A stretch of 64,000 nt of DNA from Oscillospiraceae bacterium (GTDB lineage Bacteria > Bacillota > Clostridia > Oscillospirales > Oscillospiraceae): the NCBI GenBank assembly GCA_015067995.1, contig SVLJ01000005.1, positions 62,001-126,000 on the forward strand. The letters run 5' to 3'. The position numbers and the translations under genes were made by a program. The stretch's first letter is position 1. Each line of letters opens with the position of its first letter. The notes under the pieces were generated by a model, which did no database searches, was not told where the DNA came from, and worked only from the letters and a program-made list of their open reading frames with translations. Positions 12,228-34,658 of the stretch are shown piece after piece.

Positions 12228-12240
12228 GACATTTCCTCCG

Positions 12241-16275: not shown

Positions 16276-16375
16276 ATTAATTTAAATAGAACCGGACACA
16301 CAACGGGAGACTCTGCTCCATTTTCTTTTCAAATAATTCTTCTTCGCCCCGGTTTATACCCCGGTTAAAAGGAGG

Positions 16376-16427
16376 CGGGCCGCCGCAAAACCTGCATGGC
16401 ACTATATGCAGACTTCACAGCGGCCCG
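16376..16427. repeat. Nested inverted repeat
   Basis: CGGGCCGC (16376-16383) pairs with GCGGCCCG (16420-16427), and inside it CTGCAT pairs with ATGCAG, giving two stacked or branched stems. It lies in the 336-bp gap between AraC gene 2 and the SGNH pseudogene, downstream of the latter. Function unknown; no clear T-tract. Confidence 0.5.
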
Positions 16428-16475
16428 AATGAAAAGAGGCTTATTTACTATTCACAATCATGTCATACGTATACT

Positions 16476-18290: not shown

Positions 18291-18310
18291 GTCGACACCA
18301 GTCCTTTCTA

Positions 18311-19036
18311 TCAAGAACCTCCGGTTACAGAAATCACCTGACCGGAAACATAGCTGGCATCGTCGCTGGCCAGGAACGAGACAGTATTTGCAACTTCCAT
18401 AGGCTCGCCGAGTCGTCCGAACGGTTTGTTCTTTGCCACGGCATCCCGGATCTCCTGCGGCACGTTCATGTACATCTCTGTATTGGTGGCACCCGGTGCA
18501 ACACAGTTTACGGTAATGGTCTTTCGCCCCAGTTCTTTTGCAATCGTCTTTGTAAAGCCTATCATACCGCTCTTGGCTGCCGCATAATTTGCCTGACCCG
18601 GATTTCCCAGAATGGACGTAGAGGAAATGTTAATAATACGGCCGGAATTCTGTGCACGCATCCGCTCCACGACGCAGCGGCAGGTATAGAACACGCTGTT
18701 CAGGTTGATATTGAGTACCTGATGCCACTGCTCTACGGTCATCTTGTGGAAAATCGCATCGCGGGTGATGCCGGCATTGTTCACCAGAACATCGATCCGG
18801 CCAAAATCCTCGTAGATCTTCTCAAACACAGCCTTTACATTGTCATAATCGCCCACATTGCAGACGTAGGCAAACGCTCGCTCGCCAGTAGGATCCAATT
18901 CGGTGGTATCGATTTCATTGATATCCAGCAGAGCTACTTTTGTCGCACCCTCTGCCAGAAACTTCTTAACAATACAGGCGCCAATGCCTCTGCCTGCACC
19001 GGTCACGACCGCATATTTTCCGGTTAACTGTCCCAT
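18311..19036 (-). CDS. SDR-family 3-oxoacyl reductase/3-hydroxyacyl dehydrogenase (FabG/PhaB-like)
   Basis: A 241-residue short-chain dehydrogenase. The cofactor motif is TGAGRGIG (residues 12-19), NNAG is at 87-90, and the catalytic triad is Ser138, Tyr151 and Lys155 in YAAAK. Lys/Arg-poor spacing after the glycine motif and LLDINE at the end of beta-2 suggest NAD rather than NADP, as the Asp38 would repel the phosphate. FabG/PhaB relatives act on (R)-3-hydroxyacyl groups. Since it lies between a CoA-transferase and a thiolase, I infer (R)-3-hydroxyacyl-CoA oxidation rather than fatty acid synthesis. AGGAGG precedes the ATG. Confidence 0.9.
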   Translation of the reverse strand: MGQLTGKYAVVTGAGRGIGACIVKKFLAEGATKVALLDINEIDTTELDPTGERAFAYVCNVGDYDNVKAVFEKIYEDFGRIDVLVNNAGITRDAIFHKMTVEQWHQVLNINLNSVFYTCRCVVERMRAQNSGRIINISSTSILGNPGQANYAAAKSGMIGFTKTIAKELGRKTITVNCVAPGATNTEMYMNVPQEIRDAVAKNKPFGRLGEPMEVANTVSFLASDDASYVSGQVISVTGGS

Positions 19037-19065
19037 AATAACAACCTCCTATACAATCATTATCT

Positions 19066-20280
19066 TCAGATCACGCCCCGCTCGCGCAGTCGTACCAACT
19101 CTTCTTCCGAATAGCCCAAATCGCCATAGATCTCCGCATTGTGGGCGCCGAGATCAGGTGCAGCCTTGATGGGCGCCAAGCCGGTTCCGGCAAAGCGAAG
19201 CGGGAGATTTGTGACGCGGAATGTGCCAATCTCCGGTTCGTTGATGGTGGGGAACATATCACGGGCGCCGGCAATGTGCTCATCCTGTTCCAGTTCCCGG
19301 ATGGTATAGACGGGGGCACAGGGAACACCAGCTTCATCAAGAACCGAGCACACTTCTTTAACAGACCGACTCATGGCCCATTCGTTGATAACCGCATCCA
19401 TCGCTTCGCGATTCTCCACGCGGCCTTCATGGGTAAGGAACCGCTCGTCGTCAATCATTTCCGAGTGACCAATGGCCCGGGCCAGTTTGTAGAAGAACTC
19501 ATCCGTACCGCAGCCGATGTTATAGTAACCGTCCCCTGCCTGATAGGTACCGTAAGGTGCCCAACTGCGGTAGCAGTTGCCCATGCGGACAGGCGCCAGC
19601 CCTTCAACGAAATAACGGACGTAATCCGGAGTACTCAACGCCAAGAGAGAATCCACCAGCGCGATCTCCACCTTTTGTCCTAACCCAGTCCGGTTTTTAC
19701 AGTACAAAGCCGCAAGCAAAGCCACCAGACTGGACACCCCGCCTACCGTGTCACCAATGGAACTTCCCACACGGGTAGGAGGTCCTTCCGGGAAACCGGT
19801 AATCGCCATAAGACCACTCATCGCCTGTGCAACTACATCATAGCCGGGCTTTTTGGCGTAGGGGCCATAGGTACCGTAGCCGGAGATGGAAGCATATACG
19901 ATGCCGGGATTCACCTTTTTTAGTTCCTCGTAACCGACCCCCAGTTTGTCCATCACACCGGGCCGAAAGTTTTCAATGACGGCATCGGCATCTTTCACCA
20001 GTTCCAGAAAGAGCTTTTTACCTTCCTCCGCTTTCAGATTCAAGGTGATGGAGCGCTTGTTTCGGTTCATTGTGGAATAATAGGCGCTCTTGCCGTTGAC
20101 GACCGGATAGTAGGCGCGGGATACATCAGGATCCTTGGGATTCTCGATTTTAATGACATCCGCACCCATGCTGGCCAGCCACATTGCTGCGTAGGGACCG
20201 GAAAGAACGCGGGTCAGATCCAAGACTTTTAAACCGACCAGAGGGCCGCTGTTGGGCTGCAATTCATGGCTTCCTGTCAC
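19066..20280 (-). CDS. Family III CoA-transferase (CaiB/BaiF) 3
   Basis: A 404-residue type III CoA-transferase with LVGLKVLDLTRVLSGPY, GADVIKIENPKDPD, VIENFRPGVMDKLGVGY and predicted catalytic Asp148 in KPGYDVVAQ. The open frame extends 48 codons further, but AAGGAGG lies 8 nt before a GTG at 20280, giving an N-terminus (MTGSHELQ) that matches the length of the paralogue at 11019. It heads the second acyl-CoA cassette CoA-transferase - SDR - thiolase - (SGNH pseudogene). A TATAAT at 20373-20368 on the minus strand, about 90 nt upstream, is a likely -10 box. Confidence 0.92.
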   Translation of the reverse strand: MTGSHELQPNSGPLVGLKVLDLTRVLSGPYAAMWLASMGADVIKIENPKDPDVSRAYYPVVNGKSAYYSTMNRNKRSITLNLKAEEGKKLFLELVKDADAVIENFRPGVMDKLGVGYEELKKVNPGIVYASISGYGTYGPYAKKPGYDVVAQAMSGLMAITGFPEGPPTRVGSSIGDTVGGVSSLVALLAALYCKNRTGLGQKVEIALVDSLLALSTPDYVRYFVEGLAPVRMGNCYRSWAPYGTYQAGDGYYNIGCGTDEFFYKLARAIGHSEMIDDERFLTHEGRVENREAMDAVINEWAMSRSVKEVCSVLDEAGVPCAPVYTIRELEQDEHIAGARDMFPTINEPEIGTFRVTNLPLRFAGTGLAPIKAAPDLGAHNAEIYGDLGYSEEELVRLRERGVI

Positions 20281-20352
20281 AGTTTGATCCTCCTTACACT
20301 TTTTCATTATTTTTAACTTTGGCTCAATTTCTGTCCGCTGCTCACATGCGCA

Positions 20353-20368
20353 ATGAGTATTTTGAAAA
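20353..20368. repeat. 16-bp direct repeat, copy 1 (candidate operator)
   Basis: ATGAGTATTTTGAAAA occurs here and again at 20555-20570. This copy abuts the likely -10 box (TATAAT on the minus strand, 20373-20368) of the CoA-transferase gene. AraC-type regulators usually bind direct repeats, so it may be a site for the divergent regulator. The surrounding 334-bp gap is A+T-rich and holds no other gene. Confidence 0.55.
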
Positions 20369-20554
20369 TTATATATTTTCTGTTTCCTACCTTGAATTGT
20401 AGCCCTCTTTAGCGGTATAATCAACGAAAGATATTTTCATTATTCTATGCACTTTTTCATATTGTCCCGTTTGATTTTTCTTAAGAATTCTTTGATTTAA
20501 GGGCAATTTATTTATATTCCATCGTTTTATTTCCATACTCCGGCCCGTTTGTAC

Positions 20555-20570
20555 ATGAGTATTTTGAAAA
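20555..20570. repeat. 16-bp direct repeat, copy 2 (candidate operator)
   Basis: Second perfect copy of ATGAGTATTTTGAAAA, 202 bp from the first and 44 bp before the AraC start codon, so each divergent gene has one copy near its promoter. Confidence 0.55.
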
Positions 20571-20614
20571 ACATCATTAATCATTTTGTTCTTTTAAACT
20601 CGCAGGAGGAAATT

Positions 20615-21580
20615 ATGAACAATCGGATCACTCTACTTTGGGCAAACCACGTCAAGATGTCGGCTGGCCAAAAAATGCAGCTGCACACCCACACTTGTCA
20701 TCAAGTGTACTATATTCTCTCCGGAAGCCCCATTTTCATCATTGATGAGCAGCCCATCCACATCAAGGCAGAATCATTTTTTTCCATTCCTGCCGGAGTT
20801 CGACATGGAGCTTTTCCGTTCAATCAGGATGGTTTTGAAGCCTATGAATTTAAAATCCTCCTCAACGATGTATTTTTCCAGGAGCACCTATGCACGTTTC
20901 TTTCTCCTTTAGAAAACTGCAGTTTCATGCAGCCAGCGCTGTACCATATCATCCAATACTGGCATTTTCAGAATCCTCAAATCATCGACAACACTGATTG
21001 TCTTCTTTCGCCTCTGCTTTTGCAGCTTTTCCTCAAAGACGTCCATTACAACAATCCCGGATCACGATATATACAAACAGATTGTTATAATGCGACGACG
21101 CGTTCGATCCTTGCCTATATTGACAATAGTTCCACAGGCAAATTTTCCATGGAGAACATGGGAAACGCTCTTGGCTATCACAAAAATTATCTAAGCACTT
21201 CTTTTAGCAAAAATACCGGCTTCTCAATTATCGATTACTTGAATTTCGTACGTATCCGACGTGCGATTCATGTCCTTGCTTTTTACGGACAAGATGTTTT
21301 TACTGCCTATGAAAGCAGTGGTTTTTCTTCTCTGAGTTATTTTAGCCGTACATTCAAATCCATGGTAGGCATACCCCCCCGTGATTTCCGTCGGGCATTT
21401 TCATCCGGTTCCCCTGAAATCGAGAAAAGTTTTCAAAATGAACCGATCCTGAACTACCAGCCCTGTACAATGGAAGACATGTTCCGCTCCATGCAGGCTC
21501 TTGGCAAATGTGCTTTGGCCTGTCTGAACACAGCGTCAAACGAACACGGCCCCCGCTCCCAACATAACAGCAGCGGATAG
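20615..21580 (+). CDS. AraC-family transcriptional regulator 3
   Basis: A 321-residue regulator: cupin sensor (QLHTHTCHQVYYI; IPAGVRHGAFP) and C-terminal double HTH (YHKNYLSTSFSKNTGFSI; SYFSRTFKSMVGIPPRDF). AGGAGG at 20604-20609 sets the ATG at 20615; the ORF track begins 22 codons earlier. It is divergent from the second acyl-CoA cassette and probably controls it. It is most similar to regulator 2, including a C-terminal tail (EPILNYQPCTMEDMFRS) that the other two lack, so each acyl-CoA cassette is paired with a member of the same regulator subgroup. The ligand is unknown, plausibly a pathway acid or its CoA ester. Confidence 0.92.
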   Translation: MNNRITLLWANHVKMSAGQKMQLHTHTCHQVYYILSGSPIFIIDEQPIHIKAESFFSIPAGVRHGAFPFNQDGFEAYEFKILLNDVFFQEHLCTFLSPLENCSFMQPALYHIIQYWHFQNPQIIDNTDCLLSPLLLQLFLKDVHYNNPGSRYIQTDCYNATTRSILAYIDNSSTGKFSMENMGNALGYHKNYLSTSFSKNTGFSIIDYLNFVRIRRAIHVLAFYGQDVFTAYESSGFSSLSYFSRTFKSMVGIPPRDFRRAFSSGSPEIEKSFQNEPILNYQPCTMEDMFRSMQALGKCALACLNTASNEHGPRSQHNSSG

Positions 21581-21596
21581 GCGCTGTAAAATAACC

Positions 21597-21650
21597 CCTG
21601 GAAGAAAGTCGTTGGGGCTCCAAATGGAGCCCCAACGACTTTCTTCCAGG
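21597..21650. repeat. Perfect 25-bp palindromic hairpin
   Basis: CCTGGAAGAAAGTCGTTGGG... pairs perfectly over 25 bp with its complement around a 4-nt AAAT loop. It lies between the convergent AraC 3 and MFS genes. It could serve as a bidirectional terminator although no T-tract follows, or be part of a small palindromic repeat element together with the next hairpin. Confidence 0.8.
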
Positions 21651-21691
21651 AAACAGCAGATGTGGAAACCTTTTTTACAGAAATAGGCAAA

Positions 21692-21737
21692 GCAAATACA
21701 CCTCGGGATTTTCTGCAAAATCCCGAGGTGTATTTGC
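21692..21737. repeat. Perfect 21-bp palindromic hairpin
   Basis: GCAAATACACCTCGGGATTTT pairs perfectly over 21 bp with a 4-nt CTGC loop, and the pairing continues for about 6 bp more with one bulged A. Outside it, GAAACAGCAG (21650-21659) and CTGCTGTTTC (21768-21777) are inverted copies that bracket the element. Confidence 0.8.
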
Positions 21738-21829
21738 TTGCCTTCGTCATGCGGCGTTTTGCATAACCTGCTGTTTCAGATGATATTTATGCAGGTTAAA
21801 ACCACAGGATACGAGGCCTAATTCCAAAA

Positions 21830-23116
21830 TCACACCATCTGCGATATATCCTGCTGCCTGTCAATTCTCCGTGCGAAACGTGCCTGCTCTTTTTTTGCCA
21901 TGGAAAACATCAGCAAATATACTGCAAGAACTCCAAGCAAGACTACAGAAGTCACTCTGTAGACTGGGGTATAAACCCCGGTCACATCGTAGCACATGCT
22001 ACTGATGGGGCTGGAGAACAATGATGCCGCCACCGCCAAACCGACAAAAATGCCATTTACGCTCAGGGATGCCTCATACCCAAACAAGTCAGCTGCGATC
22101 AGCGGGACCATAATGGAGGACATGCACAGGCCAGCAGCAAGGAGTATTACTGCAATCCAACACAATACGGAATCATTGGTATATGCCAAAATACCCTGAG
22201 CCACCACAGCGCACAGCATACAGACGACCATCACCGGTTTGGATCCAAACCGGTCATACAAGAAACCCAGCAGCAGTTTCACCGCCGACAGCATCAGCAT
22301 ATACACACTCTGATACATGGCCGCCTGATCCGGCGTAAAACCCTGACTGATAAAATGCGGCACCATAAAGCCGCTGGTGGTGAAGATGCACACGCAGCTG
22401 ACCAACACACACCCGCACATCAGATAAAACATCGAATGCCTGAGCTGCTCCTTTAACGGATAGCCCGAGAAGTCCGTCCGTCCCTGACGCGCATGTTTGC
22501 TTTCCACGGCCTCCCCGTATCCATATAGCTGCAGCCCCACTTGCTCTGGCCGATCCTTAATCAGGAGATACAGCGCCGCAATGACGGCAACAATAACCGC
22601 TGTCATCATGTAGGAACTGCGCCATCCTCTTGACCGGATCTCGTTGGTCAACAGCATCGTCATCAGGCTTCCTCCTATCCCCGAGGACATGGAAACTGCA
22701 CCCAACACCAATCCCTGATGCTTCCAAAACCAACTTTTAATGATCTGCACAGAACCTGCAGTAAAACAGGCACCGTAACTCATGCCGAACAGAAATTTGC
22801 CGAAGGCAAACTCAAAGATATTGTCCGACGTTGCCGATATCACCAACGCCAGGGACAAAAGCACCAGTGAAACCGTGGCTGTCTTTTTATAGCCGAAGTG
22901 TTTAAATAAAAATCCGCTCAGGCAGGTGCTGATAAAAGCGACAACGGTATAGGGCATATCGGCAAGAGCATAGGCCGTTGTATTGACACCCAAACCATTG
23001 CTGACAGGTTGAATATACACACCGCCGCTGTTGATCAGCCCTCCGTAGACCAACATCTCCAGAAACACCAGTACCGCAATCAGCCAGTGATAATTCTCCT
23101 TTATTTTCCGGTTCAT
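21830..23116 (-). CDS. Major facilitator superfamily transporter
   Basis: A 428-residue membrane protein with about 12 hydrophobic segments and the MFS hallmarks: LFKHFGYKKT between TM2 and TM3, and YDRFGSKP between TM8 and TM9, with a central cytoplasmic loop around PEQVGLQLYGYGEAVESKHARQ. The start at 23116 is set by TGGAG 9 nt before an ATG; the ORF track begins 8 codons earlier. Likely relatives are organic-anion transporters of the OFA type; the substrate is not deducible. It is the last gene of the run Opp - D-aminoacylase - M20 - MFS, so export of a released acid or import of a pathway substrate are both possible. Confidence 0.87.
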   Translation of the reverse strand: MNRKIKENYHWLIAVLVFLEMLVYGGLINSGGVYIQPVSNGLGVNTTAYALADMPYTVVAFISTCLSGFLFKHFGYKKTATVSLVLLSLALVISATSDNIFEFAFGKFLFGMSYGACFTAGSVQIIKSWFWKHQGLVLGAVSMSSGIGGSLMTMLLTNEIRSRGWRSSYMMTAVIVAVIAALYLLIKDRPEQVGLQLYGYGEAVESKHARQGRTDFSGYPLKEQLRHSMFYLMCGCVLVSCVCIFTTSGFMVPHFISQGFTPDQAAMYQSVYMLMLSAVKLLLGFLYDRFGSKPVMVVCMLCAVVAQGILAYTNDSVLCWIAVILLAAGLCMSSIMVPLIAADLFGYEASLSVNGIFVGLAVAASLFSSPISSMCYDVTGVYTPVYRVTSVVLLGVLAVYLLMFSMAKKEQARFARRIDRQQDISQMV

Positions 23117-23418
23117 ATATCCGCGCTCCAAATCTCGCAACTGTAGTTTTTTGCTTGCCGAGCCGCAGGAGATCGCTTGGAGAAAATGCGGTTCTGCAGC
23201 AGAATGGCAATTCAGATGAGGATATGATACCCCTCGCTGTTCAGGTGTAACACAGAGAGTCCATCCATATCCAGTTCGTACTTGTTTGAAAAGCCACTCT
23301 GCGCCGTGAGACAGGCCTATCCGCTACTGTCCATTTCTGCGCACACAGCGTTTCTTTCACCATGTATATTAGATTGACATCCGAATTCCTATACAAGGAA
23401 AGGTTCCTTATGCTTTTA
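23117..23418. other. Intergenic region without gene
   Basis: About 300 bp between the MFS gene and the M20 gene, both on the minus strand. A small palindrome AAGGAA-AGG-TTCCTT lies at 23395-23409 just after the M20 stop codon. The short ORFs listed here have no RBS and no recognisable product. A separate MFS promoter is possible but none is convincing. Confidence 0.4.
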
Positions 23419-24783
23419 CTATACCCGCCGCATAGACGCAATGTACTTATCACCGTCTTCGCTGCACTCCAGTTCCGACTCCATGACAGAAGCTGTTTTT
23501 TCCACATTGGCAAGGTGTTCCTCAAAAGAGTTCGCCACAGGAACAAAGCTCTCCATCACTTCATGAGCAAGACGGCCATTATCGGAAAGCAGCCGATCTG
23601 CCAGCATCAATTGCACCTTTGCCGCGTTGACACAAGCACGATCAGGATCCGCAATCGCAAATGCGGTGGAATGTACCGAAGCAGAGCCGCCGCAAACGAA
23701 CGGGTGAATACAAGGAATCACATGGGCCACATCGCCCATATCCGTGGCGCCCTTATTGACAACTTCACGGAACTCCACTCTCTCTTTTCCCACGAGATCT
23801 TCCATACAGGATCGCATCACAGAAAGCAGCTTATCATTGGATCGCATGGGCGCATAACCGACCATCTGATCACTGATTTCCACCGTAGCTCCGATGGCGG
23901 TGGCTGCCGCAAACGCAGCTCTGCTGATCTTTTTGTTTGCATCCTCAATTGCCTGCATTGAAGCTCCCTTGATTTTCACAGCCAGAACCGTTTCACCAAG
24001 AGTCGTCGCCGGTGTATTCGGGAAATTATAGCCGATCATGATACAATCCTCACCACGGAATGTCTCATGCAGCGTATTGATCGCCTGAATAGCGAGGGTC
24101 GCCGCGCTCAGAGAATTCACTGCCAGATAGGACGTTGCTCCGTGCGCAACGGATTTTCCGAGGAAGCGAATCGTTTTGTTCATAATTCCGATACTGCCCC
24201 TTGTATCGCAAGCGAAATCAAACGGTTCTCTGTTATTCGTATGAAGCATACAGCCAATATCGACGCCATCCATATAGCCCCGGCGCATGAATTCACGCTT
24301 ACCGGTTTCAAACCGAAGAGTCCCCTGTTTGATCAGCTCTTTGCGAAAACCTGTAGGATCACTTTCTTCCGCCGGCACCGCCATCAGACGAATGGAACCA
24401 CACAAGCCGTCCAGAACGCCCGGTTCCGTCAACGCAGCAGCCACGCCCAGCACACCGCAGCATTGTGCATGGTGTCCACAGGCGTGAACACACCCATCTA
24501 CATTCTCCGGATGAGCGGGAATACGCAGCGCATCCAACTCACCGCAGAACAAAATCTTAGGTCCCGGCCGGCCAGTGTCGATATCCACATAAAATCCGGG
24601 AATATCTTCGGGAGCAAACACCGTATATCCGAGTTTTTCATATGCTTCCCGCAGGATCCGCGTGGTTTTCCACTCTTTAAAGCCAACCTCCGGACACCCC
24701 CAGAGGGTCTTTTCCATTTCCACAATGAGATCCCGGTGCAGATCCACCGCTGCGATTAACTCCCGGTCTCTGCTGCTTAACAT
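23419..24783 (-). CDS. M20-family amidohydrolase (AbgB-like)
   Basis: A 454-residue relative of the genes at 1-257 and 37748, sharing FKEWKTTRILREAYEKLGY, PGFYVDIDTGRPGP, FCGELDALR, the metal-binding VHACGHHAQC, and VPAEE with the catalytic Glu. The late GATDMGDVAHVIPCIHPF segment is also typical of this amidohydrolase group. AbgB-type enzymes cleave p-aminobenzoyl-glutamate and similar N-acyl compounds. AAGGAGG precedes the ATG. It lies 101 nt after the D-aminoacylase gene in an operon that begins with the peptide transporter, so its substrate is probably an imported acylated peptide or amino acid. Confidence 0.9.
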   Translation of the reverse strand: MLSSRDRELIAAVDLHRDLIVEMEKTLWGCPEVGFKEWKTTRILREAYEKLGYTVFAPEDIPGFYVDIDTGRPGPKILFCGELDALRIPAHPENVDGCVHACGHHAQCCGVLGVAAALTEPGVLDGLCGSIRLMAVPAEESDPTGFRKELIKQGTLRFETGKREFMRRGYMDGVDIGCMLHTNNREPFDFACDTRGSIGIMNKTIRFLGKSVAHGATSYLAVNSLSAATLAIQAINTLHETFRGEDCIMIGYNFPNTPATTLGETVLAVKIKGASMQAIEDANKKISRAAFAAATAIGATVEISDQMVGYAPMRSNDKLLSVMRSCMEDLVGKERVEFREVVNKGATDMGDVAHVIPCIHPFVCGGSASVHSTAFAIADPDRACVNAAKVQLMLADRLLSDNGRLAHEVMESFVPVANSFEEHLANVEKTASVMESELECSEDGDKYIASMRRV

Positions 24784-24884
24784 ATGTTTTTCCTCCTTAT
24801 CGTGCTGTGTCTGTTACTTTCTCATGATGATTGATACAACTACTGTAACCTATAACGACAATTCTCCACACCAGAGGCTTCCTA

Positions 24885-26465
24885 TTATCTTGGAAACAGA
24901 ATCGAGCGGCCTTCCATCACTCCGGTCAGTTCATTATCTACCACTGCCGCTTTTCCGTTTACAAATACCATGTGAATGCCTTCATTGGGAATATACGGAT
25001 CGATATAAGTAGCCTTTGCGCCAACGGTATCTTTATGAAAAAGAACCATATCTGCATCGTAACCTTGCCGGATATAGCCCTTCCCCTTTAATCCATACAC
25101 ATTTGAAGGCATACCCGTTATACGGTGAATACCCTCGGCAAAAGGCAAAATTTTTCTTTCGCGGATATAATGTCCCAGATACCTGGGGAATGTGGCAAAT
25201 GCCCGAACATGAGTCTTTGCAATACCGCCTCTGAACAAACCGTCAGAACCCACCATACAACAGGGATGGGCATATAGTTGCTCAATATTCTTCTCGCTCA
25301 TGGCAAAACGGATATCCTGCACATCTCCCCGATTCAGCCGGATCACTTCGGCGTATGCCGCGATGTCATCCAGGCCCTTTTCTTCTGCATAGTCGGAAAT
25401 ACGTTTGCCAACCAGTTCCGGAGTGTTGACCGCGGTGGCGATCAGCATATTTTTGATACCGATTTTAGCTACAGGATTCTCCCAAACTTCCGTGGGATCA
25501 TAAATTGCCTTACGCAAAGCCTCAATATTCTTTTCCCCAGTCAAATGCTCTACCATCCAGTCTCTTCCATTTGCAACATAACTGGGCGGCAGCGTGGACA
25601 TAATGCCTGCCGAGCAGGCCTCATAGGGATATACATCGAAAGTAATGCACGCCCCTCGGGCATTTTCCTTCTCAATCATCTCCAGCACAGTGTCGATCTT
25701 CCGGTAATTATCTGGGAACATTGCTTTCATATGGGAGATGTTCACAGGGATGCCTGCCTCCGCGCCGATGCGGATGGCCTCTTCTACAGATTCAATCAGA
25801 CGATCACCCTCGTCGCGCATATGGGTGGAATACCTGCCTCCATAGCGGCCGACCACCTTGGCGATGGCTGTCAGTTCTTTCGTATCGCAAAACAGGCCAG
25901 GGCCATAAACCAAACCTGTGGAAAAGCCAAATGCGCCGGACTGCATAGCTTCTTCCGTCAGGCCACACATACGGTTAATCTCCTTGGCCGTTGCAGGCGT
26001 CGCACGCATACCGACAACACTGCCGCGCAAATACAAATGTCCAACAAAATTAACCTGATTGCAGCCAAATTGTTTATGTTCCAAGGCTTCCATAGCCTCG
26101 CCGAAAGTAGCGTAATGATACTTCGCTTTTTCAGGGCCAATGTATTCCTGAAAATCCGCCGGAGCATCCGGGAGATACGGCGCAGGAGACCAACCGCACT
26201 GACCACCGATCTCGGTGGTCACGCCCTGCTTCAGTTTCTCCCAACGGGAGGGGTTGTCATAGAGCTGGGAATCCGAATGAGTATGAGCATCGATAAAGCC
26301 CGGAGCCAGAGACAGTCCGGTTCCATCGATCACGACAGCTGCTTCAAGATCGTTTTTGCCGGAGACAGAAACGATCTTTCCATCCAGAACGCCCACGTTC
26401 TGTACGGCAGACGGTGCCCCACTTCCGTCAAACACTTCCACACGTTTGATCAGCACATCCAGCAT
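24885..26465 (-). CDS. N-acyl-D-amino-acid deacylase (D-aminoacylase)
   Basis: A 526-residue metal-dependent amidohydrolase of the D-aminoacylase type. It has the N-terminal beta-sandwich strand (VFDGSG), metal site IDAHTHSDSQL, ISHMKAM with a metal-binding His, MVGSDGLFRGG with the catalytic Asp, and a C-terminal imidazolonepropionase-like closing strand (GYDADMVLF). Family members release D-amino acids from their N-acyl forms; related N-acyl-D-glutamate deacylases and dihydroorotase-like enzymes share this scaffold. It follows the oppF-like gene, so it is probably part of the same peptide-use operon and suggests that D-residues, for example from cell-wall or lipopeptides, are among the substrates. 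Confidence 0.88.
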   Translation of the reverse strand: MLDVLIKRVEVFDGSGAPSAVQNVGVLDGKIVSVSGKNDLEAAVVIDGTGLSLAPGFIDAHTHSDSQLYDNPSRWEKLKQGVTTEIGGQCGWSPAPYLPDAPADFQEYIGPEKAKYHYATFGEAMEALEHKQFGCNQVNFVGHLYLRGSVVGMRATPATAKEINRMCGLTEEAMQSGAFGFSTGLVYGPGLFCDTKELTAIAKVVGRYGGRYSTHMRDEGDRLIESVEEAIRIGAEAGIPVNISHMKAMFPDNYRKIDTVLEMIEKENARGACITFDVYPYEACSAGIMSTLPPSYVANGRDWMVEHLTGEKNIEALRKAIYDPTEVWENPVAKIGIKNMLIATAVNTPELVGKRISDYAEEKGLDDIAAYAEVIRLNRGDVQDIRFAMSEKNIEQLYAHPCCMVGSDGLFRGGIAKTHVRAFATFPRYLGHYIRERKILPFAEGIHRITGMPSNVYGLKGKGYIRQGYDADMVLFHKDTVGAKATYIDPYIPNEGIHMVFVNGKAAVVDNELTGVMEGRSILFPR

Positions 26466-26661
26466 TTTTCCGCTTTTCTCCCTTAATTAAAGAAAATGCG
26501 CACCTGCGCAGAGCTTGCACAGATGCGCATAAAATCCAAACGACTGCTATTGCGATTTCAAGGGAGCAGACTCGCCCGAATCGCTTTTGTACCGTTTTCT
26601 CAAAGCATGTTCCCACGCATTTCTTTTGACATAATCGTTCCGCAATCATCCCCTAAGAGAT

Positions 26662-27636
26662 TCATCCGATTTCAGCAAGTCGACTACAGGCAACAAAGTG
26701 TCCAGGCTGTACTTCCGTCAGTTCCGGCTCCACCTCGCGGCAAGCCGCAGTGGCAAACTCGCAGCGATTTGCAAAACGGCAGCCAGGCTTGGGGTTGATG
26801 GGGCTGGTGACCTCACCCTTGATGGTCTGAATCTTCGCCTCACGCATGGAAATATCAGGGACAGGGATGGCGGAGAGCAGTGCCTTGGTGTAGGGATGCA
26901 TAGGATTCGCAAACAGCTCATCGGAGGAGGCACGCTCCACGCACTTACCCAGATACATGACCATGATATCATTGGAGATATGCTTGACCACGCTCAGGTT
27001 GTGGGTGATGAACATATAAGTCAGATGATACTCTTCCTGAAGATCCATCAGCAGATTCAGGATCTGAGCCTGAATGGAAACATCCAGTGCAGAAACAGGC
27101 TCGTCACAGACAATAAACTTGGGGTTCAGGCTCAGGGCACGAGCCACACCAATGCGCTGGCGGCGGCCGCCGTCCAGCTCATGAGGATAGGCGTCTGTCA
27201 GTCGCTTGGCCAGACCAACCGTGTCCATCAGTTCATCGACACGCTTATAGATCTCCGCTCTGGTCTTGTATGTCTTGTTGATGATCATGAATTCGGCGAT
27301 CAGATCTGACACGCATTTACGGGGATCCAGACTGGAATAGGGATCCTGGAAGATCATCTGCATGTTCTTACGCATATCCCGCATCTTCCGCTTGGAATAG
27401 TCGGCATAATTCTCGCCCTCAAACATCATCTCGCCGCTGGTAGGCTCAATGAGACGCAGAATCGTGCGGCCCAAAGTGGACTTACCGCAGCCGGACTCTC
27501 CTACCACGCCCAACGTCTGTCCGGCCATGATAGTCAAATCCACACCGTCTACCGCGTGGAGCAGACCCTTGGAGACCTGAAAGTGCTTTTTGAGGTTTTT
27601 TACTTCCAGCAAAGGGGCATTCATATTCTGTTCCAT
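26662..27636 (-). CDS. Oligopeptide ABC transporter ATP-binding protein (OppF/DppF-like)
   Basis: A 324-residue ABC ATPase. Walker A is GESGCGKST, the signature is [13 protein letters not shown] (unusual LDGG in place of the common LSGG), Walker B is FIVCDEP, and the C-terminal oligopeptide-transporter extension has the FeS/zinc-like Cys pattern ([16 protein letters not shown]). The start overlaps the OppD stop (TAATG), which implies coupled translation. It pairs with the neighbouring ATPase to drive uptake through the OppB/OppC channel. Confidence 0.93.
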
Positions 27637-28634
27637 TATACGACCTCCTCTGCATTATTCGCATACAAATGGCAGCGGATCTGGTGTGTACCGTTTTTGT
27701 AGACGCCCGGCTTTTCCGTTTTGCAGATTTCCATGCACTTGTCACATCGCGGAGCAAACGGACAGCCCTTGGGCAGATTGGTGGGATCCGGCATCAGTCC
27801 GACAATGGGGCTGAGCCGTCTGGTTTTTACCTTCAGGTTGGGAATGGAGCCAAACAGACCCACGGTGTAGGGATGATGCTTCTCTGCGCAAAAGATATCC
27901 ACGGAGGTACCGGTCTCGATAATTTCGCCGGCATACATAACGGCCACATTGTCACAGGTCTGAGCAACAATGCCCAGATCATGGGTGATCATGATCATAG
28001 CGGTGCCCAGTCTGTCACGCAGGTCGCGCATCATGGACAGCACCTGTGCCTGAATGGTGACATCCAGCGCAGTGGTAGGCTCATCCGCAATAATCATTGC
28101 CGGCTGACAGGACAGAGCCATGGCGATGATCACACGCTGCTTCATACCGCCGGAAAACTGATGGGGATAGTCGCTGTAGCGAGTGGCCGGGATGCCCACC
28201 ATCTGCAGGACCTCCTCGACGCGCGCCTGCAGCTGTGCCTTGGTGATATCAGCGTTGTGCAGCAGGATCGCCTCGCCGATCTGCTCGCCAACGGTCATGA
28301 CGGGATTCAGTGCAGTCATGGGATCCTGGAAGATCATGGCGATCTTGCCGCCGCGCATCTCGCGCAGTGTCTGGTCATCCATCTCCATCACATTCTGACC
28401 TTCCACGCAGATGGTACCATTCACCACTCTGCCGGTACGGGGCGGCAGCAGTTTCAGCAAGGACAGGGCTGTGGTTGTCTTACCTGCACCGGTCTCACCC
28501 ACAATACCGAGGGTCTGGCCCTTTTCCAGAGTAAAACTGATGCCATTGACGGCATGGACCGTCTCCAAATCCGTTTTGTAGATAATCTCCAGATCTTTGA
28601 CCTCGATAAACGGGGCTGCATTTACTTCTTTCAT
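27636..28634 (-). CDS. Oligopeptide ABC transporter ATP-binding protein (OppD/DppD-like)
   Basis: A 332-residue ABC ATPase with Walker A GETGAGKTT, signature FSGGMKQRV, Walker B MIIADEPT and the OppD-type C-terminal extension ending in CPFAPRCDKCMEICK. The ORF begins at an ATG only 2 nt after AAGGGGG; the second ATG at 28634 has 8 nt spacing and is preferred. It is the partner of the downstream ATPase, energising import of peptides into the cytosol. Confidence 0.93.
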   Translation of the reverse strand: MKEVNAAPFIEVKDLEIIYKTDLETVHAVNGISFTLEKGQTLGIVGETGAGKTTTALSLLKLLPPRTGRVVNGTICVEGQNVMEMDDQTLREMRGGKIAMIFQDPMTALNPVMTVGEQIGEAILLHNADITKAQLQARVEEVLQMVGIPATRYSDYPHQFSGGMKQRVIIAMALSCQPAMIIADEPTTALDVTIQAQVLSMMRDLRDRLGTAMIMITHDLGIVAQTCDNVAVMYAGEIIETGTSVDIFCAEKHHPYTVGLFGSIPNLKVKTRRLSPIVGLMPDPTNLPKGCPFAPRCDKCMEICKTEKPGVYKNGTHQIRCHLYANNAEEVV

Positions 28635-28650
28635 GTCCATAACCCCCTTC

Positions 28651-29523
28651 TCAAGTCTTCATTTTGGGATCCAACGCATCGCGCAGACCATTACCCACCA
28701 GATTGATGGACAATGCGGTCAGCATGATGGCCAGACCGGGGAACATCATCAGATACGGCTGTGTGCGGAAAAACTCGCGTGCGTCATTGACCATGGCGCC
28801 CCATTCGGGAGCGGGGGGCTGTACGCCCAGACCCAGGAAGCTCAGATTAACCGCACTGAGGATGAAGGTGGCAGTGTTCTGGGTAAATTGAATGATCAAC
28901 AAACTGGAAGCATTGGGAACTGCGTGGGTCAGAATATTTCTCAGGCTGCTGGCACCGCCGCCTCGTGCAGCCTCCACATATTCCTGGGAGGAAATCGTCA
29001 AGGCTGCAGACCGGGTCAAACGGGCAACACCCGGGATGTTACAGAATACAAGGGCGATGATCATATTGGTCAGACTGGGCCCAAGGACAGACACCATAAC
29101 AATGGCCAGCAGCGTTCCCGGCATTACGGAGATCATGTCTGCAAGGCGCATGATAATCATGTCAAATCGCCCGCCGAAAAAGCCGGCGGCGAGACCCATG
29201 AGTCCGCCCAGAATCAGACAACCGACAGAAACCGACAGGCCAATAAAGATGGAAGTCGGTGCACCATGGATGACACGGGCAAACACATCACGGCCGCGGC
29301 CATCGGTACCAAACCAGTGCTCTGCACTGGGGGGCTGAAGTCTCTCAGAAGCATGCGTTTTGATCGCCAGATCGTAGGGAACGATAGCGTGACGAAACAG
29401 GGCAACACAGATGATGCCGATCAGCAGGCACAGGGCAAACACCGCCAGCTTGTTTTTCTTGAAGCGGCGCCAGGTTTCCTTCAGACGCGCAATACTGCGG
29501 GCGCGCCGTTTTTTATTATCCAT
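28651..29523 (-). CDS. Oligopeptide ABC transporter permease (OppC/DppC-like)
   Basis: A 290-residue inner-membrane permease with a Lys/Arg-rich N-terminus, the OppC N-terminal domain (HWFGTDGRGRDVFARVIHGA), about six membrane helices, and the EAA loop (YVEAARGGGASSLRNILTHAVPN) that contacts the ATPases. It forms the channel with the adjacent OppB-like protein. RBS AAAGAGGTG precedes the ATG. Confidence 0.93.
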   Translation of the reverse strand: MDNKKRRARSIARLKETWRRFKKNKLAVFALCLLIGIICVALFRHAIVPYDLAIKTHASERLQPPSAEHWFGTDGRGRDVFARVIHGAPTSIFIGLSVSVGCLILGGLMGLAAGFFGGRFDMIIMRLADMISVMPGTLLAIVMVSVLGPSLTNMIIALVFCNIPGVARLTRSAALTISSQEYVEAARGGGASSLRNILTHAVPNASSLLIIQFTQNTATFILSAVNLSFLGLGVQPPAPEWGAMVNDAREFFRTQPYLMMFPGLAIMLTALSINLVGNGLRDALDPKMKT

Positions 29524-29535
29524 ATAGCACCTCTT

Positions 29536-30465
29536 TCACTTAGAGTATCTCGCCTTGACACGAGGATCGAGGAATGCAGTGGCCAGATCCGTCAGCACAA
29601 GGATCGTGTTGAACAGTACGGACACAAACAGCGCAGAAGCCACCACAGTCGGCGCATCACGCATATTGAGTGCAGTAAGGGTCAGGGTTCCCAGACCGGG
29701 GAGGGAGAACAGGCTCTCCATCACGATGGCGCCGCCCAGCATGGCACCCAGCGTACTACCAATACTGGTAACGACGGGCAGCAAACCGTTTCTCATGGCA
29801 TGCTTCCAGATAACCACCCGCTCCTTGGCGCCCTTAGCGCGGGCAGTGCGGACATAGTCGGTCTGCAAAATATCCACCATGGAGCTGCGGGTATAGCGCT
29901 GCAGGCGTGCCGCACTGCCAAAGCTGTTTGCAAAAACCGGAAGCAAATACCCCAACGGATCCTCCACGCCAAAGGATGGCACCAGATCCAGTTTGAACGC
30001 GAACAGATACAGCAGCAGCATGCCCAGCCAGAAGCCGGGAATGGCAGGGATCACCATGGACATGCTGGTGGGCAGAGTATCCCACAGGCCGCCCTGCTTC
30101 ACTGACGCCAGAACACCCAGCGGAACGCCAACCAGGGCCGCAGTGAGCACGCTCAGGCATGCTATGGTTGCCGTCACCGGCATACGGGCAAGAATTTCAT
30201 TCATAACCGGCTGCTTGGTGCGGTAGGAAATCCCCAAATCTCCGCGAAGAAGATCACTCAAAAAGTTACCGTAACGAACCAAAAACGGCCGATCAAATCC
30301 CACCGCATGATTATAGGCCTTGATCTCCTCCGGCGTGGCGTCGGTTCCCAGGATGGCGGTTCCGGGATCACCGGGAGCCAACGCCATCAAGCCGTAAATC
30401 ATAAAGGATGCCACCAGCAGCACAGGGATCAATAACAGGAATCTTTTTAACACATAACGTCCCAT
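29536..30465 (-). CDS. Oligopeptide ABC transporter permease (OppB/DppB-like)
   Basis: A 309-residue permease. The N-terminal MGRYVLKRFLLLIPVLL helix, the periplasmic-side GDPGTAILG segment, the EAA loop (YVRTARAKGAKERVVIWKHAMRN) and the final DPRVKARY are all typical of OppB. About six membrane helices are expected. GGGAGG lies 12 nt before the ATG, a slightly long spacing. It follows the binding-protein gene after a GC-rich hairpin. Confidence 0.93.
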   Translation of the reverse strand: MGRYVLKRFLLLIPVLLVASFMIYGLMALAPGDPGTAILGTDATPEEIKAYNHAVGFDRPFLVRYGNFLSDLLRGDLGISYRTKQPVMNEILARMPVTATIACLSVLTAALVGVPLGVLASVKQGGLWDTLPTSMSMVIPAIPGFWLGMLLLYLFAFKLDLVPSFGVEDPLGYLLPVFANSFGSAARLQRYTRSSMVDILQTDYVRTARAKGAKERVVIWKHAMRNGLLPVVTSIGSTLGAMLGGAIVMESLFSLPGLGTLTLTALNMRDAPTVVASALFVSVLFNTILVLTDLATAFLDPRVKARYSK

Positions 30466-30509
30466 GGAACAGTGATTCCTCCCTTTTCAGTATTTTGTGA
30501 ACAAACAGC

Positions 30510-30539
30510 GCGGGGGGGCGGATTCCTCCTCCCCCCCGC
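30510..30539 (-). terminator. G/C-tract hairpin between oppA-like and oppB-like genes
   Basis: GCGGGGGGG and CCCCCCCGC form a 9-bp stem with a 12-nt loop in the gap behind the binding-protein gene. No T-tract follows, so rather than full termination it may stabilise the upstream mRNA end and raise the level of binding protein over the permeases. Confidence 0.6.
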
Positions 30540-30570
30540 CAGTAACAAAGCTTAATATCCGCTGATTGCT

Positions 30571-32145
30571 TTACTTCCAGCTCCAGTCATAGAAATAAGG
30601 TCTCAGGCTATAAGTCACAGCGTTCAGATCCTTGTTCCATACCTGATTGTTGATCGTATTGTACAGAGGAATGATAGCGCAGAAGTCAGTCAGATACTCG
30701 TCAAGCTTGGCCCAGCCGGCCTTACGTGCTTCCAGAGACTTGGCAGCCAGCGCATCAACCTTCATGCTGTCAACCAGTGCCTGATCGAACTCCTTGTTCT
30801 GGTAGGCATGGGGCAGATGCTCCGCATCGGACCGGTACCAACCGGCATACTCGTTATAGCTGACACCCCAGGACCAGCCAAAGGGGAAGGTGTCATAGAC
30901 GGTCTCGGGATTGGTCTGGGCATCACTGAGAAGACTGGCCTTTTCACCATTCTGAATGGTGGCCTTGATGCCGATCTCTGCCAGATTCTCCAGGAACACC
31001 TCGGAAATGGGGATATAAGTGCCGCCGCCGCAGGAGATGGTCATCTCAAAGCCGTTGGGATAGCCGGCTTCCTTCAGCAGAGCCTTGGCCTTTTCGATGT
31101 TGCGGGTATAACGGAGGGGCATCTCCTCGTTCTTGGGTGCATCGGGAATAGAGGGAGAAACGAAGGTATCGGCCACCACGGCCTGACCGCTCACCGCGAT
31201 TGCAATGATATCTTCCTTGTTCACGCAGTAAGCGATGGCCTGACGCACGCGCTTATCATACAGGGGACTCTTGTCATTGCGGGTATTGAGGGCGATGAAG
31301 TAAGTAGCTCTTGCAGTAACGGGCTCCACCACGAGATTCTTGTTGGCCTGCACGATAGCAAGATCGTTGGCACTGACGGCGGAAAAGTCAATGTCGCCGC
31401 TCTCCAGAGCCATCAGACGGGCAGCTGCGTCGGTGATAATGACGTACTCAATGGTCTTGATGGCGGCCTCACCACGCCAATAATCAGGATTGGCCTCCAG
31501 AACGATCTTGTTGTTGGGATCATAGCTCACGAAGCGATAGGGGCCGGAACCGGCTTCAGATACCTGAAGTGCGAAATTGTCGCCCATCTCTTCGACGACC
31601 TTCTTGCACACCACGGGAACCATGTTCATAGAGGTCTCAAACACGGCGTTGGGAGCAGACAGCGTGAACTTGACCGCATCCGTACCAATGGCTTCGACTG
31701 CAGTCAGGTTGGGCAGCCAGGAGCCTCTGTACTTATTGTCAATACAGCGCTGGAAGGAGTACACAACGTCTTCCACGGTCACGGGGTCACCATTGTGGAA
31801 CTTGATGCCCTGACGCAGCTTGTAGGTATAGGTCAGACCATCAGCGGAAATCTCATAGCCGGTGGCCAGGCAGGGCTCCAGAGTGCCGTCTTCCTTGATA
31901 TGGTGCATACCCTCATAGACCTGCTCGGTAACCATCATGTCAACACTCATGGTCGTAGCATGGGGGTCCATGCTTTTGCCGATACCGGTCAAGGGATATA
32001 CCAGCTTGGTGCGGGAGGGTGCAGCAGGGCTGCTGGGGTTGCTGGGGTTGCTGGGAGCACCAGAGGTTGCGGGCTTATCACCGCCGCAGGCCACCAGTGC
32101 CAGGAGCATAACCAATGCCAAACACAGAGACAAGAATCGTTTCAT
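30571..32145 (-). CDS. Oligopeptide ABC transporter substrate-binding lipoprotein (OppA/DppA-like)
   Basis: A 524-residue family 5 extracellular binding protein. It begins with a lipoprotein signal (MKRFLSLC, hydrophobic core, lipobox LVAC, cleavage before Cys20) and a Ser/Pro/Asn-rich linker (APSNPSNPSSPAAPS), then the SBP_bac_5 fold with DPHATTMSVD near the start and NGDPVTVEDVVYSFQR. It would be anchored to the outer face of the membrane and deliver a peptide or peptide-like ligand to OppBCDF. It is the first gene of the operon, with GGAGGAG before the ATG. The nature of the ligand cannot be read, but all downstream genes are deacylases and amidases. Confidence 0.93.
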   Translation of the reverse strand: MKRFLSLCLALVMLLALVACGGDKPATSGAPSNPSNPSSPAAPSRTKLVYPLTGIGKSMDPHATTMSVDMMVTEQVYEGMHHIKEDGTLEPCLATGYEISADGLTYTYKLRQGIKFHNGDPVTVEDVVYSFQRCIDNKYRGSWLPNLTAVEAIGTDAVKFTLSAPNAVFETSMNMVPVVCKKVVEEMGDNFALQVSEAGSGPYRFVSYDPNNKIVLEANPDYWRGEAAIKTIEYVIITDAAARLMALESGDIDFSAVSANDLAIVQANKNLVVEPVTARATYFIALNTRNDKSPLYDKRVRQAIAYCVNKEDIIAIAVSGQAVVADTFVSPSIPDAPKNEEMPLRYTRNIEKAKALLKEAGYPNGFEMTISCGGGTYIPISEVFLENLAEIGIKATIQNGEKASLLSDAQTNPETVYDTFPFGWSWGVSYNEYAGWYRSDAEHLPHAYQNKEFDQALVDSMKVDALAAKSLEARKAGWAKLDEYLTDFCAIIPLYNTINNQVWNKDLNAVTYSLRPYFYDWSWK

Positions 32146-32595
32146 AAATGCTCTCCTCCAAAAAGAATTTTCAGTTCACAAACAAGCCGCCGTTTGTTTC
32201 TCCGTTCTGCTGTTTAATCGGCAACCTGCTGCGCCCTGTGTTGTGCATATCACGATACACATTCCGCGGCACGCGGTCAATACTCCGTCCTCGCAGAACA
32301 ATAGTCCGATATTTGGGCGTACGGCAATTTGATTCTGCGGTTGGTTTTCCTGACAAACGCATTTTTCTCCGCTCGTCCTCCCCCCAAAAAACCGCCGCTT
32401 TAGCGAATTAACCAATTAGTCAAGGCCGTTTTTAGTCAATCTACCACTTCCGCGTATTTTCGTTTTCAGCTTTTTGCCAAATATCAGATTATAGCTTTCG
32501 AAAGCGCATCTGGCAAATTTCAAAAAAATTTGCTATATTATGAGCAACCATACACGCCAAACATTCACGACGCCTTCTATAAGGGGGTCTTTACA
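32146..32595. promoter_or_regulatory. Divergent intergenic region between opp operon and AraC gene 4
   Basis: A 450-bp A+T-rich gap between divergent genes. On the plus strand an inverted repeat GCAAATTT-5 nt-AAATTTGC (32513-32533) directly precedes TATATT (32534-32539), a possible -10 box and operator for the AraC gene. GCTTTCGAAAGC at 32494-32505 is a further palindrome. The short ORFs in the stretch lack RBS and family resemblance. Confidence 0.5.
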
Positions 32596-33546
32596 ATGGA
32601 GAAAACACATCTTCTGTGGGCAGGCAAAACCGAAATGCCTTCCGGTTGGCAAACCCAAATGCATTCAGACACCTTTTTCCATTTATTTTATCTGCGCAAG
32701 GGAAATACACTGCTTGTGGGACACCATGCGGAATACCCACTCCTTCCGGGGGATTTGATGATTTTTCCGCCCGATGCACCGCATGGTACGGATCAATCCA
32801 ACCTCGGACTGGGTTTGTTTTATGAACTAAAATTCCATGTTTTTGACAGCGATCTGCTCGAACTATTTGAATCCGGGGCTCCACTTTGGGTTCAAAACGT
32901 TCCTCAGCTGAATCTCGTTCTGGAACGGATTGTTTCTCTGCATTATTCGGATCACCCCAATAAGACCGATTTGATCGACACGCTCTTGTCCGCTTTCTTA
33001 TATCTGATTGATCATAGGAGTATTGAGTCCCTTGATTCCGCTTACTTTGATACCGACAACTACTCTCCCCTTATTAAAAAAACCATCAAATATCTTGAGG
33101 TTCATTATTCAGACCCGTATGATCTCTCTGCATTATCATCCGCCCTTGGCTTCAATAAAAGCTATCTCTGTTCCCAATTTCAAAAAGAAACCGGCGTTGT
33201 CATATCCACTTGCCTGCACTACATGCGTATCCGCCGTGTGCTGTCAACCCTTTACATGAACCGCGGAAACGTAAATTTTAATATCAACGCAGCCAGCCAG
33301 TATGCAGGTTTTGGGTCTTCCTCATACTTCAATCGCATCTTCAAAAAACTGACCGGACTGACACCCGGCCAATTCCTGGAAGCGGCCCGGGAAAGTTCCA
33401 ACAATCCGGATGAGCCGTTGATACAGTATTACAGGGATCATATTAAAGACAGTGAAAATGCCGACCGGAAAGTTACTGTTCTGAACGCCTTAAAAAAACT
33501 AAACCGCTTAGGCGAACACTATTCTCCCCCCGCCTCACCCGAATGA
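32596..33546 (+). CDS. AraC-family transcriptional regulator 4
   Basis: A 316-residue regulator with the sensor motifs QMHSDTFFHLFYL and FPPDAPHGTD and a double HTH (LGFNKSYLCSQFQKETGVVI; SYFNRIFKKLTGLTPGQF). AAGGGGG sets the ATG at 32596; the ORF track starts 22 codons early. It is divergent from the opp operon and likely governs it. With regulator 1 it forms a subgroup that ends in a Gln/Tyr-Tyr tail, and both are next to peptide-processing operons, while regulators 2 and 3 face acyl-CoA cassettes. Confidence 0.92.
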   Translation: MEKTHLLWAGKTEMPSGWQTQMHSDTFFHLFYLRKGNTLLVGHHAEYPLLPGDLMIFPPDAPHGTDQSNLGLGLFYELKFHVFDSDLLELFESGAPLWVQNVPQLNLVLERIVSLHYSDHPNKTDLIDTLLSAFLYLIDHRSIESLDSAYFDTDNYSPLIKKTIKYLEVHYSDPYDLSALSSALGFNKSYLCSQFQKETGVVISTCLHYMRIRRVLSTLYMNRGNVNFNINAASQYAGFGSSSYFNRIFKKLTGLTPGQFLEAARESSNNPDEPLIQYYRDHIKDSENADRKVTVLNALKKLNRLGEHYSPPASPE

Positions 33547-33607
33547 CGGCTGGCAGAGCATCCTTGCGGCTTCTTGTCCTGTTTCCACCGTGTAGTCGGA
33601 GGTACCA

Positions 33608-33805
33608 ATGTATTTTTTCAAAGACACCTACGAAGAGTGTCCATATACGAAAAAACCCGTTCTGATCACAGTCCATATTGATGCAGACGGCGGCTTTGAT
33701 TGTTCTATCGAGTGTACTGAGCCGGAGATTGCCTGCCAACATCAGTCAAATTGTATGTATGCTCACAGAGAAATGTGCTGGCTTGCTCAAAATGCGTTTA
33801 AATAA
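33608..33805 (+). CDS. Small cysteine-rich protein of unknown function
   Basis: A 65-residue ORF beginning 5 nt after a clean GGAGG. It has six cysteines (EECPY; FDCSIEC; ACQHQSNC; EMCW) and no signal peptide or membrane segment, so a small metal-binding or redox protein is possible. I do not recognise a named family. It is 61 nt behind AraC gene 4 and followed by a strong terminator, so it may be cotranscribed with that regulator. It is the last gene before the tRNA-Ser scar. Confidence 0.65.
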   Translation: MYFFKDTYEECPYTKKPVLITVHIDADGGFDCSIECTEPEIACQHQSNCMYAHREMCWLAQNAFK

Positions 33806-33923
33806 TGTAAAAATCAAAATATTATCACTTTTGAACAAATATCCAGAAAACGAAATAGACAGCAATTTTATTATGGCATGCTGTTAAACGGCCACATATT
33901 CAATTGGATGCCATGATAAACTC

Positions 33924-33964
33924 AAAAGAAACTGCGGACGCTTATGTAGCCCGCAGTTTCTTTT
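33924..33964 (+). terminator. Rho-independent terminator
   Basis: AAAAGAAACTGCGG pairs with CCGCAGTTTCTTTT over 14 bp with a 13-nt loop, ending in T residues. It closes the AraC 4/small-protein unit and, having A residues on the other side, could also work in reverse. Confidence 0.85.
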
Positions 33965-34017
33965 AGGCTTGTCGTTGACAAAGTCAACCACTGGCTCTGC
34001 CGGGGTACCGTTAAGAG

Positions 34018-34066
34018 TTATGCGCAAATTAGTTTGCGCATAATGACCCTTATTGTGACCCTTTAT
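34018..34066. repeat. Inverted and direct repeats next to the tRNA scar
   Basis: TTATGCGCAAA and TTTGCGCATAA form a perfect 11-bp inverted repeat with a 4-nt spacer, followed directly by TGACCCTTAT and TGACCCTTTAT as a direct repeat. GTTGACAAAGTCAAC (33974-33988) is a further short palindrome. Such clusters about 100 bp from an attachment core resemble arm-type binding sites of tyrosine integrases. The rest of the 525-bp gene-free stretch is A+T-rich. Confidence 0.5.
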
Positions 34067-34170
34067 ACATTACAATATCAAAAAATCTATGGACTGACCG
34101 ACAGAAAAGCCTAATAATTCTGAATTAAACAAACTAAATTTTATGGACAAAAAGAATTATGTATCGCTTA

Positions 34171-34193
34171 TTCGAATCCCTCTTTCTCCGCCA
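34171..34193 (+). other. tRNA-Ser 3'-end fragment (probable attachment site scar)
   Basis: TTCGAATCCCTCTTTCTCCGCCA has the exact layout of a tRNA 3' end: T-loop TTCGAAT, T-stem 3' strand CCCTC, acceptor 3' strand TTTCTCC, discriminator G and encoded CCA. The discriminator G73 fits tRNA-Ser. No 5' half is present upstream (no matching GAGGG or GGAGAAA), so it is not a tRNA gene. A terminator follows immediately. Integrases commonly use this part of tRNA genes as attB, leaving such a copy at the far end of the integrated DNA. Confidence 0.75.
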
Positions 34194-34196
34194 GAA

Positions 34197-34232
34197 ACAG
34201 AGGACACGCAAAAGCGTGTCCTCTGTTTTTTT
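34197..34232 (+). terminator. Rho-independent terminator behind the tRNA fragment
   Basis: ACAGAGGACACGC and GCGTGTCCTCTGT pair over 13 bp with an AAAA loop, followed by seven T. It was probably the terminator of the original tRNA-Ser gene. Confidence 0.9.
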
Positions 34233-34330
34233 GTTCACCGGTCTCTTCTCTCTCAGAACCGGTTGCGCCCCGACGCTTTCTGTGCTACCATGATGTCCAG
34301 CAAGACAAATACTGTTTGGGAGCTGCTTTT

Positions 34331-34657: not shown

Positions 34658-34658
34658 G

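Follow-up and report, generated by a model that had tools for sequence, protein, structure and literature searches.

The window analysed here is a stretch of 64 kb that corresponds to C18:62001-126000, where C18 is a contig of the 2.31-Mb, 40-contig draft genome (completeness 91.6%) of an Oscillospiraceae bacterium. Positions preceded by C18 are those of the contig, and all other positions are those of the window. At 34171-34193, on the plus strand, the window carries the sequence TTCGAATCCCTCTTTCTCCGCCA, which comprises the T-loop, the 3' strand of the T-stem, the 3' strand of the acceptor stem, G73 and the CCA end of a tRNA-Ser. ARAGORN called no complete tRNA anywhere in the 64 kb, and the fragment therefore has no 5' half. 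Behind it lies a hairpin with a T run (34195-34228), which has a perfect 15-bp stem, a folding energy of -27.5 kcal/mol and a z-score of -8.7. Ahead of it there are a perfect inverted repeat (34018-34043) and a double repeat, TGACCCTTATTGTGACCCTTTA, at 34044-34065, for which the shuffle expectation is 0.00. The preliminary description of this DNA had reported a 23-nt tRNA-Ser 3' end lacking its 5' half, a tRNA terminator behind it and an inverted and a direct repeat ahead of it, and each of these features is present. The genes to the left of the fragment are listed in Table 1; a dipeptidase-like protein is also encoded there. A second C45-type copy is found in tandem at 1852-2916 on the minus strand, and the pair has a DNA identity of 78%. 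A plus-strand ORF placed over 475-2829 by a simple gene caller was rejected, minus-strand genes being likelier there. Only one of 300 other genomes of the family that were searched matched the HMG-CoA synthase-like gene, with 35% identity, and this rarity fits acquisition from outside.

Table 1 Features of the window at and to the left of the tRNA fragment.
Feature	Position	Strand	Basis or remark
Right 34 kb of the 75.7-kb island (C18:20480-96170)	1..34170	.	Between two tRNA ends; G+C
C45-family autoproteolytic acyltransferase/hydrolase	2937..3992	-	NF040521, AAT domain
ArgE/DapE-type deacylase	3982..5199	-	Below curated cut-offs, best E 6e-53
Amidohydrolase (TIGR01891) and CaiB-type CoA-transferase	6583..9015	-	
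Thiolase-type acetyltransferase and HMG-CoA synthase-like protein	12241..14840	-	
Thiolase, SDR reductase, second CoA-transferase	17103..20280	-	
MFS transporter, M20-type amidohydrolase, amidohydrolase-family protein	21830..26465	-	
Oligopeptide-type ABC transporter: two ATPases, two permeases, binding protein	26662..32145	-	
AraC-type regulator, the large gene nearest to the right end	32530..33546	+	
Perfect 11-bp inverted repeat, 4-nt loop	34018..34043	.	Fold analysis
Double repeat TGACCCTTATTG/TGACCCTTTA, probable integrase arm site, right end	34044..34065	+	20/22 to left repeat
Right att core: 23-nt 3' end of tRNA-Ser(GGA), from T-loop to CCA	34171..34193	+	Partner C18:20457-20479
Displaced native-type tRNA terminator, 15-bp perfect stem and T run	34194..34233	+	Fold; G018/G057 parallel

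An intact tRNA-Ser(GGA) was called by ARAGORN at C18:20388-20479, 41.5 kb past the left edge of the window. Its 3' end (C18:20457-20479) is on the same strand as the fragment, at a distance of 75.7 kb, and the two are identical at 22 of 23 positions, the single difference being a base of the acceptor stem, which is T in the fragment and C in the intact gene. Within the window, 34171-34193 is the sole match to this end at up to 3 mismatches (shuffle expectation 0.00). On C18, the tRNA and the fragment are the only two close copies of the 23-nt end; weaker matches, with 2-3 mismatches, belong to other tRNA-Ser genes (CGA, TGA, GCT) on other contigs. The tRNA end and the fragment (C18:96171-96193) form a direct repeat in the same orientation, with one mismatch, that borders the island. 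The left 41.5 kb of the island, with the intact tRNA and an integrase remnant, lies outside the window.

The base composition of the island differs from that of the flanking chromosome, with a step at the borders. Between the two sites the G+C content is 50.5%, against 58.0% in the 20 kb to the left of the tRNA and 59.0% in the 38 kb to the right of the fragment, in agreement with the lower G+C that had been noted earlier on the left side of the fragment. When a segment with a fixed length of 75.7 kb was slid along C18, the best of 563 placements started at 20,500, which is at the tRNA; with both ends left free, the optimum was 19,800-96,800. Inside the island, the G+C content is 47.6% at 20.5-31 kb, 42.2% at 31-40.5 kb, 58.6% at 40.5-43 kb and 50-56% further to the right.

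Tyrosine integrases of this kind have arm sites near the recombination site (PMC8138268). The double repeat ahead of the fragment has a left partner, TGACCCTTATCT/TGACCCTTTA, located 45 nt behind the intact tRNA (C18:20525-20546). The left and right repeats share 20 of 22 bases, while the maximum in 40 shuffles was 16. A pairing of left and right repeats above that of shuffles was also found in two congeners, G060 (20/22) and G034 (19/22); in G018 (16/22) and G007 (17/22), where the right-hand copies are less clear, the pairing was not above shuffles. The left arms are most similar where the integrases are most similar, with 22/22 between G018 and G060 and 22/22 between G007 and G047. Judged by these sequences, the repeats at both ends are probable arm-binding sites of a tyrosine integrase.

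An opposite-strand ORF, convergent with the intact tRNA and ending about 50 nt beyond it, encodes the catalytic C-terminal portion of a tyrosine recombinase, having the motifs HDLRHS..LGH..YGH and a match to Pfam Phage_integrase (E 7.7e-16). Intact relatives of about 400 amino acids align to it from residue 247 onward only, and the homology stops at C18:21037. The N-terminal 60% of the integrase (246 residues), which in an intact relative includes a SAM-like N-terminal domain and the first catalytic arginine (TGMRQGE), is missing. This part is absent from C18, and its best match in the rest of the genome is a different integrase with 30% identity. Because the SAM-like domain and the first catalytic arginine are absent, the remnant is very unlikely to be active. 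Splitting of the integrase by insertion of the nested module described below was considered and rejected, the N-terminal part being absent from both the contig and the genome. An intact tRNA-Ser and an integrase had been predicted to the left of the window. The tRNA gene is there, with its end identical at 22 of 23 positions, and a tyrosine integrase homologue adjoins it, but this homologue is truncated and its missing part is nowhere in the genome. Relatives of the integrase on plasmids and in phages are moderate or distant, the best phage among the matches listed having 56.5% identity, and there were none among viral contigs. Among labelled genomes, one clear relative (54%) was found, in an uncultured Oscillospiraceae MAG.

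We inspected the surroundings of tRNA-Ser(GGA) at 48 congener loci, within the stretches that were fetched. In 24 of the 48, the left flank has the arrangement g022 - g023 - tRNA-Ser(GGA) at a nearly constant distance. Integrases that are 66-69% identical to the remnant adjoin tRNA-Ser(GGA) in G060, G018 and G052, and relatives with 44-47% identity adjoin it in G007, G047 and G034. In G007, two copies of the 23-nt end on one contig bracket a 9.1-kb element, while in G018 and G060 the intact tRNA and the integrase are on one contig and the fragment is on another. The DNA behind the G018 fragment corresponds to that behind the intact tRNA in G057, with 92.7% identity over 1342 bp and 97.6% over the first 41 bp, which comprise the terminator; it also follows the intact tRNA in G024 (89.1%) and G038 (88.2%). 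By their sequences, G018 and these three genomes can be described as filled/empty pairs for sibling elements. For the lineage of the window, the genes right of 34194 were found behind the tRNA in no congener examined, within the stretches fetched. A search for DNA similar to the right flank returned nothing beyond the tRNA end with its terminator, a dispersed repeat and matches that were short and weak; no homologue of the first right-flank gene lies near a tRNA-Ser, and the right-flank amidohydrolase has too many paralogues to serve as a probe for an empty site. In four further congeners, G012, G005, G032 and G077 (loci L104, L113, L118 and L119), 3' fragments of tRNA-Ser(GGA) of 59-63 nt were observed, which reach the anticodon arm. 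It follows that another kind of element also targets this tRNA gene, with a longer overlap.

The native terminator of G018, which in the unoccupied G057 follows the intact tRNA, lies behind the fragment, and the intact tRNA of G018 is followed by a different hairpin. This comparison shows that an element of this type displaced the native terminator to the fragment and provided a new one in its place. A hairpin similar to that behind the G018 tRNA follows the tRNA in the genome of the window and in G060, G052, G084 and G050, the copy in the window's own genome being one loop base shorter. In an alignment of six sequences (own genome, G060, G018, G052, G004 and G050), in which an N was placed in the own loop to hold the register, 98.8% of the cells are paired; at three pairs both sides vary, with four pair types occurring at one of them, and the covariation score was reached by no shuffle. 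Within the stretch examined, no integrase was found near the tRNA in G004 and only a piece of one in G050, so that these two loci may or may not be occupied by an element. The hairpin is preceded by an A-tract and followed by a T-tract, and it could therefore stop both the tRNA transcript and that of the convergent integrase. That this integrase family carries its own covarying terminator inside the att core, replacing the displaced tRNA terminator and parting the tRNA from the convergent integrase, is a tentative proposal to which we give somewhat less than an even chance.

The left part of the island encodes TnpV, a DUF6809 protein, a 605-amino acid serine recombinase (Resolvase/Recombinase/DUF4368), a MobA/MobL relaxase and a resolvase. 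The serine recombinase and the relaxase, which matches MobA/MobL and MobQ, belong to a nested module at C18:21281-29999, the ends of which were not found. Many genera of the family have DNA that resembles the recombinase and relaxase genes, mostly at 66-77% identity and once at 89-93%. No mating-pore gene was seen among the ORFs of the island that were searched; the relaxase is present in the nested module. The module is followed by a low-G+C cluster (42%) at C18:31467-39488 (L010:11467-19488), with vWA, PP2C, protein kinase and zinc-ribbon-like genes, for which PADLOC gave kinase-domain matches only and no evidence of a defence system. The next genes match the families of FGGY kinases, short-chain and zinc-type dehydrogenases, rhamnose mutarotases and M24 peptidases. 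Overall, the island has a large complement of genes for the breakdown of sugars, peptides and acyl-CoA. One gene inside the island, at C18:59804-60860, matches Kdd (3,5-diaminohexanoate dehydrogenase), a dehydrogenase of lysine fermentation, and its DNA is 99.4% identical to that of C18:129723-130779, outside the island. Furthermore, C18:60898-62269, which ends at window positions 1-269 within the island, is 82.6% identical in DNA to 37736-39107 in the right flank, both carrying amidohydrolase-family genes. From these two pairs of copies, part of the island has been exchanged with the chromosome, or duplicated from or to it.

The right flank contains other repeated sequences. Just right of the island, 34626-34876 is a dispersed repeat of about 250 nt that is strongly structured as RNA (z -8.7). 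Copies with 91-95% identity are found on four other contigs of the genome, in addition to an incomplete copy. Many congeners have its core of about 45 nt (34728-34772), often several times each. No Rfam family matched the repeat at gathering score. Three tandem genes at 48453-52087, each encoding 394 amino acids, are 76-78% identical to one another and 53-56% identical to an amidohydrolase inside the island.

We consider it very probable that the segment between the two tRNA ends is a 75.7-kb island integrated at tRNA-Ser(GGA), with the fragment and the old terminator as its right border, and that it was probably fixed by loss of its integrase. An element would have entered the 3' end of tRNA-Ser(GGA), bringing a copy of the last 23 nt so that the tRNA stayed intact, as well as a terminator of its own and arm sites for both ends. 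The right border, at 34171-34233, would then consist of the tRNA 3' end that was displaced and the earlier terminator. Later, the integrase would have lost its N-terminal domains and first catalytic arginine, after which the island would probably be fixed, or movable only with an integrase acting in trans, as for a CIME. Since the integrase is broken, the island is probably immobile by itself. We infer both integration by this integrase in the lineage of the window and the subsequent loss of mobility.

The preliminary description took at least the 34 kb left of the fragment to have arrived as one element. An integrated island is borne out by the tRNA ends, the adjoining integrase remnant, the arm repeats, the G+C step and the filled/empty sites of congeners, but a single arrival is doubtful, because the G+C content varies from segment to segment and a chromosomal gene has a 99.4% identical copy in the island. 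Given this near-identical copy and the nested mobilizable module, the island is probably a mosaic. A related reading is that successive elements accumulated in tandem at the same tRNA and that an inner att site was lost, so that the fragment and the integrase remnant would come from different elements. Such accretion is known for elements of this kind (PMC5704250), G052 has two tandem integrase homologues beside the same tRNA, and both the nested module and the uneven G+C inside the island (42-59%) would fit it. However, C18 has just two copies of the tRNA end, and the left and right arm repeats are closely alike (20/22); we regard tandem accretion as rather unlikely. Far less probable is an island that is still mobile, with an intact integrase in existence and the truncation being an artefact of the assembly or the strain. 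The genome is a draft and both att ends seem well preserved, but the remnant is surrounded by uninterrupted contig sequence, and the 246 residues that it lacks are not encoded anywhere in the assembly. Although dispersed and duplicated sequences are common on C18, a fragment that is due to chance, or that is an ordinary duplicated piece of tRNA not tied to integration, can practically be dismissed, as 0.00 such matches are expected by chance and the fragment coincides with the arm repeats, the terminator, the G+C step and the integrase at the partner tRNA.

The 75.7-kb island is ordinary in kind, genomic islands at tRNA 3' ends being already known. NBU2, which is integrated at the 3' end of a tRNA-Ser by a single tyrosine integrase, is an example (PMC5704250). 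With such islands, IMEs and ICEs it shares the tRNA 3' target, the repeat that restores the gene, a tyrosine integrase at one end and arm-like repeats flanking the sites; it differs in that the integrase is truncated and convergent and the element supplies a new terminator. The island appears closest to the CIME, an element without integration and transfer genes that retains its att sites (PMC5704250), and it seems to have decayed towards this state. It keeps both putative att ends, with cores and arm repeats, and its integrase gene is broken; unlike a CIME it has a relaxase gene, though in the nested module, and mobilization in cis or in trans is a prediction. The nested module resembles the Tn4451-like IMEs in its large serine recombinase, relaxase and TnpV-family gene, whereas its relaxase matches MobA/MobL and MobQ and that of Tn4451 is reported as MobV. 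ICEKp1 displaces the tRNA terminator and has a co-directional integrase that exploits the tRNA promoter (PMC13023037). The native tRNA terminator at the far end of the element is common to both cases, but the integrase of the present island is convergent with the tRNA and separated from it by a replacement terminator. A terminator that covaries, is carried by the element and separates the tRNA from the integrase is possibly a mildly new point.

The borders are now fixed for a 75.7-kb block rich in the catabolism of peptides, amino-acid derivatives and acyl-CoA. Across the genus, tRNA-Ser(GGA) is a repeated integration site that is used with two overlaps, of 23 nt and 59-63 nt. The species with and without an element at this site form a comparative set on how elements keep a needed tRNA gene and its terminator working. 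If the proposal of an element-borne terminator is true, it would represent a strategy opposite to that of ICEKp1-type elements, in which tRNA transcription runs into the integrase.
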